Below, piece after piece: positions 18,114 through 22,228 of a DNA stretch of 64,000 nucleotides. The first letter of the stretch is position 1; each line of letters starts with the position of its first letter. The DNA lies in the NCBI RefSeq assembly GCF_018687785.1, contig NZ_LTBL01000001.1, positions 921,780 to 985,779 of the forward strand. The letters run 5' to 3'. The notes under the pieces are model-generated. The model was given only the letters and a program-made list of their open reading frames with translations. It did not search any database and was not told the origin of the DNA. The position numbers and the translations under genes were made by a program. The stretch is from Methanovulcanius yangii. GTDB taxonomy: Archaea > Halobacteriota > Methanomicrobia > Methanomicrobiales > Methanomicrobiaceae.

Positions 18114-18222
18114 AAGTATATATAATGTGTTATGATATCATTTATTTGTCTGAAAAGAAGTCTGTCATAAAGGTGCTTTATGTCAGACAATTGACCGACA
18201 ATTAGCTGTCATATGTCAGACT
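18114..18222 (+). promoter_or_regulatory. Promoter and inverted-repeat operator array of the cdrS-ftsZ operon
   Basis: A TATA-like run (AGTATATATAATG) lies at about 18115-18127. Downstream is a near-perfect inverted repeat at 18160-18188: arms GTCTGTCATAAAG and CTTTATGTCAGAC with a 3-bp centre and one mismatch per arm. The inner blocks CTGTCAT and ATGTCAG occur again, back to back, at 18206-18219. TTGTCTG at 18146-18152 is a further inverted half-site of CAGACAA at 18184-18190. The array lies at or just after the expected transcription start, where a bound repressor would block the polymerase. Autoregulation by the RHH protein encoded next is inference. Confidence 0.6.
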
Positions 18223-18236
18223 CAGTGATTCACATG

Positions 18237-18413
18237 ATGGAACGTATTACAATCCGGTTACCCTCCCAGCAAGTCGCGATGCTAGAGAAATTCGTGGAAG
18301 CCGGGGAATACCCCACAGTGTCAGAAGCGGTGAGGCACGCAGTCAGGGAACTCATTGAGAAACACAGCGAGCGTGTACAGAAAGACAGCGAGCAAATCTC
18401 GTTCGAGGTTTAG
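18237..18413 (+). CDS. cdrS: Ribbon-helix-helix regulator, CdrS-like
   Basis: A 58-residue ribbon-helix-helix DNA-binding protein. The ribbon MERITIRLP is followed by helix A (SQQVAMLEKFVEAGE) and helix B (SEAVRHAVRELIEKH), the standard RHH layout. In haloarchaea a short RHH protein, CdrS, is encoded beside ftsZ2 and controls it; size, sequence style and position here match. The ATG at 18237 was chosen because homologues begin MER and GTGAT lies seven bases upstream; ATGs at 18234 and 18213 are in frame, but the latter falls inside the inverted-repeat array. The TAG is inside the ribosome site (TAGGAGTGA) of the next small gene. Confidence 0.85.
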   Translation: MERITIRLPSQQVAMLEKFVEAGEYPTVSEAVRHAVRELIEKHSERVQKDSEQISFEV

Positions 18414-18423
18414 GAGTGAAAGT

Positions 18424-18573
18424 ATGAATTCGTCATTGTATGAAGACTACAGTGGCCCCTACTGGGAAGATGTGATCATCAGAGGGTTACAAGACGTTTC
18501 CGAGTTATTGCAGTCAATCGATTGCCACTCTTATTCCGTACCCCGAAATTACGAAGAAATTTATCACCCTTAG
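18424..18573 (+). CDS. Small acidic protein of 49 residues between cdrS and ftsZ
   Basis: The ATG at 18424 is preceded by GGAGTGA five bases upstream, and the TAG at 18571-18573 is part of the ftsZ ribosome site (TAGGAGGT). This gives a three-gene chain of coupled translation. The protein is acidic and aromatic: [20 protein letters not shown], then an amphipathic helix ([12 protein letters not shown]) and a tyrosine-rich tail. I know no family. Its location suggests a role in division, but that is inference from context only. Confidence 0.65.
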
Positions 18574-18583
18574 GAGGTTTTGG

Positions 18584-19741
18584 ATGCAGACCATTATCAA
18601 TGAAGCTTTAAGGCATTCCGAACAGGAACGTCAGATGCAGAAGGACGTCATCGGTGACGATGATTTCGTCGGACAGCCACGCATTGTCATTGTCGGGTGC
18701 GGAGGCGCCGGCAACAACACGATCAACCGCCTCTACCATATGAAGGTAAAGGGCGCAGAGACCATTGCCGTCAACACCGACAAGCAGCACCTCGAGATGA
18801 TCCAGGCAGACAAGCGGGTCCTCGTGGGCAAATCCCTGACGAAGGGACTCGGGGCAGGTGGATTCCCCGATGTCGGCAAGCGTGCAGCAGAGATGGCACG
18901 GACCACCCTCGAGGGACTCCTCGCTGACGCAGACCTTGTCTTCGTCACCGCAGGAATGGGCGGCGGAACGGGAACCGGCGTCGCGCCGGTCGTGGCACAG
19001 ATCGCCAAGGAACAGGGCGCAATCGTCGTCGGAATGGTCAGCTATCCGTTCCAGGTTGAGAAAGCCCGCCTCCTCAGGGCCGAGGAAGGTCTCGAGGCTC
19101 TCGCAAATGCCGCGGATTCCGTCATCGTGCTCGACAATAACCGCCTGATGAACTTCGTCCCCAACCTGCCCCTCGGTCAGGCATTCTCCGTCATGGACCA
19201 GCTCATCGCCGAGACCGTCAAGGGTATCTCCGAAACGATCACCGAACCGTCGCTCATCAACATTGACTACGCAGATGTCCGCGCCATCATGAGCAAGGGC
19301 GGCGTTGCAGTGATGCTCGTCGGAGAGAGTAAACAGCAGAACAAGGCAGAGAATGTCGTCCACGAATGTCTGAACCATCCCCTCCTCGACATCGACTATC
19401 GTGGCGCAACCGGCAGCCTGATCCACATCACCGGAGGAAGCGACCTTACACTCCTCGAGGCCGAAGAGATTGCAAGCTCCCTCACCTACGAACTCGACGC
19501 CCATGCCGATGTCATCTGGGGCGCACGGGTCAACAAGGAATTCGAGGGCAAGGTCCGTGTCATGGCAATCATGACCGGCGTCAAGAGCGCACAGATCCTC
19601 GGTCAGAGATATGAGGTATCCTCTGCCGCACCCGCATCCCGGCCCTCAGGCCACAGCTACGGCCACAATATGATGAGGAGTTCCGGACCCCAGTACGCCC
19701 AGGAAAAGACCAGCGGCGGACTCATCGATTTCATCAGGTAA
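18584..19741 (+). CDS. ftsZ: Cell division protein FtsZ
   Basis: FtsZ is the tubulin-like GTPase that forms the division ring. The GTP-binding signature GGGTGTG is at 126-132, with [12 protein letters not shown] at 39-49 and NTDK at 64-67. The T7-loop residues appear as [11 protein letters not shown]. The C-terminus ends in a flexible Ser/Pro/Gly linker and the conserved tail GGLIDFIR. Length 385 residues. GGAGGT stands seven bases before the ATG. Co-transcription with cdrS and the 49-residue ORF is likely. Confidence 0.97.
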
Positions 19742-20160: not shown

Positions 20161-21024
20161 ATGTTGAACGAATTGATCGACAAACGAAAAAAGATCCTCA
20201 CGGATTCTGAACAGCATAAAAACAAAAGAAATGAGCTCAATGCTCTTGCAAGCACCTTTGCACGCGAGAGAAACCAGCTCAACGGGCAGACCCGGGAATT
20301 TGTTGACGAGGCCCAGAAAAATAAAGACCTCCGGGACCAGTCCAATGCAGAAGTTCAGCGCCTGAAGGATGAACGCAATGACCTCAACGAGAAGGCAAAC
20401 GTGCTTTTCGAGGAAATTGACGCGTACAAAAAGGAACACGGCGCAATCAACAACGCCCGCGGCATCAAGGAACTCCAGAAACAGATCGAAAAGCTCGAGA
20501 TGGACCAGCAGACCCGTGTGATGAACACGGAGAAGGAGCGGGAACTCATCGAGAAGATCAAACAGCTCAAACTCCAGATCAAAGAGCAGGAAGAGGAGCT
20601 GGAGCAGAACAAGGAGATTCACACCAAGCTTCAGGAAGCACGTGAATTCCGCCGGGCAGCATCCGATCTTCATGCAAAGGTCACCGAGATGGCAGAACTT
20701 GCCCAGAAGCACCACGACCTCATGGTCGAGTGCTATCGCAAGGCAGACAAGTCACGCGAGGCCGCTGACGAGGGACACAGAAAATTCGTCGAGGCGCAGG
20801 AAGCCGCAGATGCGGAACACAACCAGTTCATCGCCTGCCAGAAGGAGCTTCGCGACTACGACAAGGTGATCGGCGGTCTGCGCAAGAAGGGGAAGAAGAC
20901 AAAGGTCAACAAAGAGCAGAAGGCGGTCAGGAAGGAAGCCGAGGAAGTTTTCCAGCAGTTCAGGGCCGGAGAAAAACTTACCACCGACGATATCCTTCTC
21001 CTGCAGCGTGCAAAACTCATATAA
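20161..21024 (+). CDS. Archaeal coiled-coil protein (COG1340-like)
   Basis: A 287-residue, highly charged protein that is almost wholly alpha-helical. Long heptad stretches run from about residue 5 to 235 (for example LKDERNDLNEKANVLFEEID and ELIEKIKQLKLQIKEQEEEL). A basic segment GLRKKGKKTKVNKEQK comes near 245, and the end (AGEKLTTDDILLLQRAKL) resembles a short recruitment motif. This is the pattern of the uncharacterised archaeal COG1340 proteins. It is 52 bp upstream of the DUF373 membrane protein gene on the same strand. Confidence 0.8.
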   Translation: MLNELIDKRKKILTDSEQHKNKRNELNALASTFARERNQLNGQTREFVDEAQKNKDLRDQSNAEVQRLKDERNDLNEKANVLFEEIDAYKKEHGAINNARGIKELQKQIEKLEMDQQTRVMNTEKERELIEKIKQLKLQIKEQEEELEQNKEIHTKLQEAREFRRAASDLHAKVTEMAELAQKHHDLMVECYRKADKSREAADEGHRKFVEAQEAADAEHNQFIACQKELRDYDKVIGGLRKKGKKTKVNKEQKAVRKEAEEVFQQFRAGEKLTTDDILLLQRAKLI

Positions 21025-21076: not shown

Positions 21077-22228
21077 ATGATAATGTCGTCAGAGCGGACT
21101 CTGATCCTGTGTGTCGACCGGGACGATGATATCGGTTTCAAGGCCGGAGTCCAGAGCCCTGTCGTCGGCAGAGAGGCTTGTCTGGACACCGCAAACAGAC
21201 TCGGCCTCGTCGATCCGGAAGACTCTGATGTGAATGCCATTTTTCAGGCGATCAAAACCTACGACGCGCTCAAGGCCCGTGGCGAGGATGTGTGTATCGC
21301 CGTCCTCGCAGGAAACCATTATGATCTCATCAATGGCGACCGAAAGATTGCCGAAGAACTCCGAAAGGTCGTCTGGGATCTTGAAGCCGGCGAGTGCATT
21401 CTGGTTACGGACGGTGCAGAGGACGAGTACATCCTGCCTGTCATCCAGTCGAAGATCTCCGTCGCAAGCGTGCAGCGGGTGATAGTCAAGCAGATGCCGA
21501 ACCTCGAAGGCACCTATTACATCATCAAGAAGATCCTTGAAGACCCGAAGTATGCACGATCAATCCTGATACCCATCGGCCTTGCGATGCTTCTCTACGC
21601 CATCGGCAGCCTTCTGGGCAATCCCCAGCTTGCAATATTCATCGTGGTTGGTGTCCTCGGGATTTACCTGCTCTTCAAGGGCCTCGGCCTTGACGAATAC
21701 CTCAATTACACCTTCCGCGCTCTCCAGGAGTCCTTTGTCGGAGGACGGTTCTCGTTCTTCTGCTACATCGGCGCCATTTTCCTCAGCATCCTGGGAATCA
21801 TCATGGGACTTGCAAGCTTTCTTGAGTGGTACACTCCCGATGCAGGCATTTTCTTCCAGATCTCCTCCTTCATCTTCGGCGCCATCGGCTACCTCACCTT
21901 TGCCGTCATCGTCGCCTTCACGGGGAAGATCATCGACGTATCCCAAAATGACCCCCACATCCTGGCAAGGATAGTAGTAATCCCATTCTATCTGACCGCG
22001 CTTGCGGTGATTGCCTACGGAGCGTCAGTCTACGTCATCTCCCTCGGGGGGACCTACGACTTTCCTATCGCCGGGCTGGACGGAGTACGCATTCTGATGC
22101 TTACGACCGGCATCGCGCTTGTGATCGCGTTTCTCGGGATGTATGTTCAGAAAGCCATCGGTAAGATGGAGAAATACGCCATCCAGCCGAAGAGCGAAAA
22201 AAAGAAAGGCCTCCGGACAAAGGGATAA
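21077..22228 (+). CDS. DUF373 family integral membrane protein
   Basis: A 383-residue protein. The N-terminal half (1-155) is soluble: TLILCVDRDDDIGFKAGVQSP, then a domain with CIAVLAGNHYD and ILVTDGAEDEYILPVIQSK. From about residue 160 there are six hydrophobic helices and a lysine-rich cytoplasmic tail (KSEKKKGLRTKG). This is the archaeal DUF373 family; function unknown, though the conserved acidic patches in the soluble part suggest nucleotide or metal binding. The start could also be the second ATG at 21083. Followed by a C/T-rich terminator. Confidence 0.87.
   Translation: MIMSSERTLILCVDRDDDIGFKAGVQSPVVGREACLDTANRLGLVDPEDSDVNAIFQAIKTYDALKARGEDVCIAVLAGNHYDLINGDRKIAEELRKVVWDLEAGECILVTDGAEDEYILPVIQSKISVASVQRVIVKQMPNLEGTYYIIKKILEDPKYARSILIPIGLAMLLYAIGSLLGNPQLAIFIVVGVLGIYLLFKGLGLDEYLNYTFRALQESFVGGRFSFFCYIGAIFLSILGIIMGLASFLEWYTPDAGIFFQISSFIFGAIGYLTFAVIVAFTGKIIDVSQNDPHILARIVVIPFYLTALAVIAYGASVYVISLGGTYDFPIAGLDGVRILMLTTGIALVIAFLGMYVQKAIGKMEKYAIQPKSEKKKGLRTKG

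Follow-up and report, generated by a model that had tools for sequence, protein, structure and literature searches.

A probable lineage-restricted microprotein gene between cdrS and ftsZ in three genera of Methanomicrobiaceae

The 49-codon open reading frame (ORF) located on the forward strand between cdrS and ftsZ (18424–18573) in the 64,000-nucleotide stretch of DNA analysed here (the window) is, judging from its sequence and from its counterparts in related genomes, almost certainly protein-coding and translated. By a slight preference, it is best explained as a real, lineage-restricted third gene of the cdrS-ftsZ2 operon, the product of which would be a helical partner of FtsZ2 or CdrS. 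The microprotein is not general: of nine related genera, only three have retained it. The known accessory factors of archaeal FtsZ are few in number. A selected small gene that is present in some lineages and absent in their sisters offers a natural with/without comparison, with a concrete target in the culturable Methanogenium species. It is also an example of how annotation rules for short ORFs could overlook a gene that belongs to a core operon.

Organization of the cdrS-ftsZ locus

The ORF, read directly from the sequence, starts with the ATG at 18424 and ends with the TAG at 18571–18573, and constitutes the middle cistron of three genes on the same strand. The upstream gene, cdrS (18213–18413 with the start assigned by the ORF finder), encodes a ribbon-helix-helix (RHH) regulator (RHH_1, PF01402; E 1e-6, 28.9 bits versus a cut-off of 20.5), and the haloarchaeal NCBIfam CdrS model NF058555 scores 65.7 bits on its product, below the cut-off of 100. 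The downstream gene, ftsZ (18584–19741), encodes a protein of 385 residues with Tubulin and FtsZ_C domains (TIGR00065, 413 bits), which is of the FtsZ2 type by its locus beside cdrS. A second full FtsZ is encoded elsewhere in the same genome. On the 3' side of ftsZ, the same strand also carries genes for a DUF7121 protein and a DUF373 protein (20161–21024, 21077–22228).

Both junctions of the ORF are tight. The initial annotation had described a ribosome site overlapping the cdrS stop and a stop overlapping the ftsZ ribosome site, and both descriptions are exact. The sequence AGGAGTGA runs from the cdrS TAG (18411–18413) towards the microprotein ATG, so that the AGGAG of the microprotein ribosome site (18412–18416, followed by TGA up to 18419) overlaps that stop, while the microprotein TAG runs into the AGGAGG (18572–18577) located upstream of the ftsZ ATG at 18584. 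The two gaps measure 10 nt each. A leader of the TAGG-purine type, 10–17 nt long, precedes the ORF in all 12 orthologues. The overlap of ribosome site and cdrS stop (TAGGAGG...ATG) is, however, the usual cdrS-ftsZ junction of the order and nothing special to this locus.

The cdrS-ftsZ2 pair has been studied in haloarchaea. According to the accessible part of the study of Halobacterium salinarum and Haloferax volcanii, an RHH cdrS is followed directly by ftsZ in one transcript, and the pair is a widely conserved archaeal division locus that is also conserved in Methanomicrobia (PMC7439475). By its locus, the window pair corresponds to the one studied there, since it holds an RHH cdrS followed by ftsZ on the same strand (PMC7439475), an adjacency found order-wide and interrupted here by one small gene. 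Unlike the haloarchaeal locus, the window holds a 49-residue gene between both partners; the only extra gene mentioned in that part of the haloarchaeal study is cdrL, which is confined to Halobacteria (PMC7439475). A protein encoded between cdrS and ftsZ was not reported in the literature searched, which did not extend to subscription papers or preprints.

Evidence for a protein-coding gene

The ORF by itself is only mildly unusual. When the 170-nt gap was shuffled with its dinucleotide composition preserved, 317 of 20000 shuffles (about 1.6%) contained an ATG-initiated ORF of at least 49 codons starting within the first 20 nt, which is what could be said in favour of an open frame that arose by chance within a conserved spacer or RNA element. 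It is the conservation across genomes that raises the ORF above chance. The ten ORFs from genus g1 (the window's own genus) and genus g5 (Methanogenium) align over 46 codons with no indel and no stop, whereas the leader between the cdrS stop and the microprotein ATG varies in length. Pooled dN/dS amounts to 0.08 within g1 and 0.31 within g5, and the variable columns in g1 number 2, 1, and 9 at the first, second, and third codon positions, respectively.

The comparison of reading frames points in the same direction. Among the ten ORFs, the true frame has a pN/pS of 0.38 and no stops, while the values for the two alternative frames are 1.09 (15 stops) and 1.31 (29 stops). Pooled sequence pairs are not independent, and the neutral simulation, which handles pairs alike, was run along the fitted tree with the real sequences as the start. 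It gave a mean of 0.82 (s.d. 0.16), with none of 2000 runs as constrained as the real ORFs and a single stop-free outcome in 2000. In g1 alone, where changes are few, 6 of 2000 neutral runs were as low. This pattern of substitutions indicates that the peptide is under purifying selection at the protein level.

The conserved reading frame, the synonymous excess, and the lack of indels refute a chance frame unless all assemblies are wrong in the same way. An RNA element in the spacer fares no better, because the third positions are free to change, and no match was found in the Rfam search. We therefore regard either origin as hardly credible. The claim of a real microprotein made in the initial annotation is, on the contrary, strongly supported by the orthologues in the same place, the dN/dS values, the frame comparison, and the neutral simulation. 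Nor is the peptide sequence free, as would be expected of a leader or relay peptide.

Distribution and evolutionary history

A tblastn search with the peptide detected it with E < 1e-9 in 10 of the 60 genomes searched (including its own), all within two genera. A profile search extended to 232 genomes of the order yielded 13 matches at E ≤ 0.01, of which 12 lie in the family at the cdrS-ftsZ gap, while the thirteenth is weak (E 0.003) and falls inside a frame of 283 residues. Carriers amount to 12 of the 28 family genomes and comprise all members of three genera: g1 (3/3, two of them MAGs), g5 (7/7), and g9 (2/2). Among the family non-carriers, where 15 of 16 gaps were read (G026, for which the search used at this step gave no ftsZ match, was left out), 12 genomes have a spacer of 54–131 nt without the peptide and three, those of g7, have a gap of 10 nt. 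In the ORF-less spacers, the longest ATG frame closed inside the gap has, read by eye, about 22 codons. Across the five remaining families of the order, 39 of 39 cdrS-ftsZ gaps measure 1–28 nt, and two more measure 10 and 11 nt (G060 and G096 are left out of this count); all 41 measured genomes have no room for the ORF. Thus, the conserved, stop-free peptide that was to be looked for in orthologous gaps holds for three genera, but most gaps of the order contain no such ORF or leave no gap for it.

When 392 genomes of the phylum were searched, all matches outside the family were weak (best E 0.0019), and nothing credible turned up beyond the order. Seven loci considered as distant homologues (L072 and L151–L156) were rejected, as they have neither cdrS nor an FtsZ motif nearby and most matches lie inside longer frames; six further weak matches of that search fell outside this inspection. 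The viral contigs searched gave no match, and no family matching the peptide was found in Pfam, NCBIfam, PHROGs, PADLOC, or PDB.

A tree built from EF-2 and FtsZ places the g9 pair as the earliest branch of the family, followed by g7, which has no gap, and then by the remaining genera, among which g1 and g5 form fully supported sister groups. Although the C-terminal half of the g9 peptides is different, a WE(D/E)LICRGLQDV core is retained in them, opposite its 12-residue counterpart in the window peptide. When each g9 peptide is compared with the window peptide, none of 2000 shuffles scores as high. The comparison with g5 peptides is weaker, as shuffles reach the score in 296 and 128 of 2000 cases for G017 and in 2 and 3 of 2000 for G006. 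A frame break was observed in both ftsZ and EF-2 of the g5 genome G027 (L140), and these breaks are probably sequencing errors in the assembly.

Monophyly of the three carrier genera is rejected by EF-2 (AU 8e-7) and by EF-2 plus FtsZ (AU 2e-4), whereas FtsZ alone does not reject a carrier clade (AU 0.21). Because of this disagreement, two histories come into consideration: either the gene is as old as the family, was lost in g7, and was replaced by a non-coding spacer elsewhere, or it moved by transfer of the operon. Decayed copies of the gene in the ORF-less spacers were also considered and rejected, since DNA alignment to the 12 ORFs compared with shuffles gave nothing convincing in any of the 12 spacers; even for the best one (G014), 14 of 200 shuffles reach its alignment score.

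Candidate roles of the peptide and control of the operon

A division role for the peptide is a candidate suggested by its position. Of the division-related function proposed in the initial annotation, the location in the operon stands, while neither sequence, nor structure, nor family membership ties the peptide to FtsZ. In particular, searches of Pfam, NCBIfam, PHROGs, and PDB revealed no resemblance of the peptide to known FtsZ partners, and a comparison with the FtsZ N-terminus was negative. This last comparison followed a likeness seen by eye, and the idea that the peptide copies the N-terminal helix of FtsZ was rejected (hhalign probability 0.7%; the score is reached by 820, 264, and 243 of 1000 shuffles).

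The gene content of the family narrows this role further. FtsZ is found in 28 of 28 family genomes, with two matches above the cut-off in most of them, and SepF in 27 of 28, the miss being a genome that is 76% complete (G005). These counts rule out that the peptide replaces SepF or a lost FtsZ. Moreover, close relatives that possess both FtsZ proteins and SepF lack the peptide, which excludes it as a core division factor. In the MAG G002, extra low-scoring FtsZ-like fragments were observed (contig C6, 7946–10372), perhaps as a result of contamination (4% reported).

Taken together, the location of the gene, its short junctions, and the selection on the peptide suggest a small protein produced in step with CdrS and FtsZ2. 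In all 12 carriers, the gap between cdrS and the microprotein gene measures 10–17 nt. The 3' end of the microprotein gene differs between lineages, yet in 11 of 12 carriers it remains at the start of ftsZ: the distance to ftsZ is +10 nt in g1 and G020, and +1 nt in G011 and G027, while the exception is G015, with +21 nt. In the five other g5 genomes (L028–L031 and L034), the microprotein frame enters ftsZ by 17 nt in another frame, so that the genes overlap.

According to the accessible part of the work of Huber et al., reinitiation in H. volcanii and E. coli declines sharply as the distance grows, with hardly any left at about 20 nt, and complex subunits make up 45.2% of the H. volcanii gene pairs at −8 to +10 nt versus 5.6% of those at more than 20 nt, an 8.1-fold enrichment (PMC10666635). 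The pairs of our locus may be likened to these termination-reinitiation pairs for their short distance and common strand (PMC10666635). However, the +10-nt gaps of g1, provided with ribosome sites, lie at the edge of the coupling range shown in that part, whereas the g5 members overlap ftsZ by 17 nt or stop 1 nt before it (PMC10666635). E. coli pairs at +9 to +12 nt are described there as initiating independently (PMC10666635), and independent initiation may likewise apply to a gap of 10 nt that is provided with a ribosome site. Given the short junctions and the enrichment for complex subunits, the most likely role of the peptide is that of a partner of CdrS or FtsZ, although this is no proof. 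We would give a partnership with one of these two proteins about an even chance, with FtsZ2 taking about two thirds of it.

The same junctions could be read in another way, in which translation of the ORF serves solely to bring ribosomes over the cdrS-ftsZ spacer and the peptide itself has no job. The carriers do bridge the spacer with coupling-like junctions, coupling in H. volcanii fades by about 20 nt (PMC10666635), and the peptide C-terminus is loose, with a variable end point. However, purifying selection at the amino-acid level, as indicated by the dN/dS values given above, is unexpected for a mere relay, and 12 family genomes tolerate an unbridged spacer of 54–131 nt, which makes this reading quite improbable.

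A real small protein with a job unrelated to division, hitch-hiking in a strong and regulated operon, deserves more weight, but is still unlikely. The presence of the gene is patchy, with three genera carrying the peptide while others with the same division set do not, and no sequence link connects it with division proteins. Against this, the gene occupies the same place between the same two genes across the deepest split of the family, and the search of 232 genomes of the order revealed no credible copy at any other place.

For the preferred reading, that of a partner of FtsZ2 or CdrS, the following mechanism can be proposed. A probable promoter and the operator-like array, both seen in the sequence, lie upstream of cdrS, and ribosomes could pass from cdrS to the microprotein gene and on to ftsZ through the overlaps of stops and ribosome sites. 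CdrS, the microprotein, and FtsZ2 would consequently be made in step, and the acidic helical peptide would act as a stoichiometric partner, binding FtsZ2 as the first choice or CdrS as the second, and thereby tuning ring assembly or the CdrS regulator. More tentatively, the peptide might be a dedicated archaeal FtsZ2 regulator that binds in fixed proportion and tunes ring assembly, originating at the base of the family, with several losses or replacements. If the peptide binds FtsZ, a model would be MciZ from Bacillus subtilis, described as a 40-residue inhibitor that caps FtsZ and is produced during sporulation under the control of sigma-E (PMC5045927). Like MciZ, the microprotein is a single very small protein of similar size; unlike it, it is encoded inside the ftsZ operon.

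The predicted structure of the peptide is simple. Two AlphaFold runs, one with the single sequence and the other with a six-sequence alignment (A3), returned one helix spanning residues 12–31 or 12–35 with loose ends; the block means of pLDDT over residues 11–30 are 79–89, and the whole-model confidence is low (pTM 0.38 and 0.36). These models suggest a central helix, about 20 residues long, flanked by flexible ends rich in tyrosine. In the ten peptides from g1 and g5, this helix is amphipathic, with at most 51 of 2000 shuffles reaching its moment, and in the two from g9 it is not (moments of 0.10 and 0.09). Net charge is acidic in all 12 peptides, ranging from −1 to −7.

Upstream of cdrS, a probable TATA box of the operon, TATATATAA, is located at 18117–18125, and in 18 of 21 genomes a TATA-like match is found at a distance of 114–128 nt upstream of the conserved cdrS start. 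Between this box and cdrS, an array of TGTCAGACA/TGTCTGACA-type half-sites in exact 11-bp steps (18146–18221) is a candidate operator of the operon. All 39 genomes examined, which represent all six families of the order, have from one to five TGTCAGACA-type sites (with up to one mismatch) in the 150-nt region preceding the conserved cdrS start, versus a shuffle expectation of 0.02–0.10. In 21 genomes, GACA/TGTC half-sites are separated by 11, 22, 33, and 44 nt in 25, 29, 28, and 8 pairs, respectively, compared with at most 0.1 pairs in shuffles for each of these distances. The array resembles an operator to which RHH dimers would bind cooperatively, with one dimer per helical turn. CdrS would be the obvious candidate to bind it, and the operator may thus be autoregulatory. 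An array with this 11-bp period is without mention for the haloarchaeal locus in the accessible part of that study (PMC7439475).

A 21-nt tandem pattern of the array (with up to one mismatch) had no match in the window's own genome, even at this locus, and is too strict to be informative. Two second-ftsZ loci, scanned whole since the gene start was not located, held only one scattered site. Finally, ATG 18213, with which the longest cdrS ORF begins, lies within the operator-like array, and annotation of this longer form may be wrong, because the conserved start MERITIRLP is found at ATG 18237.
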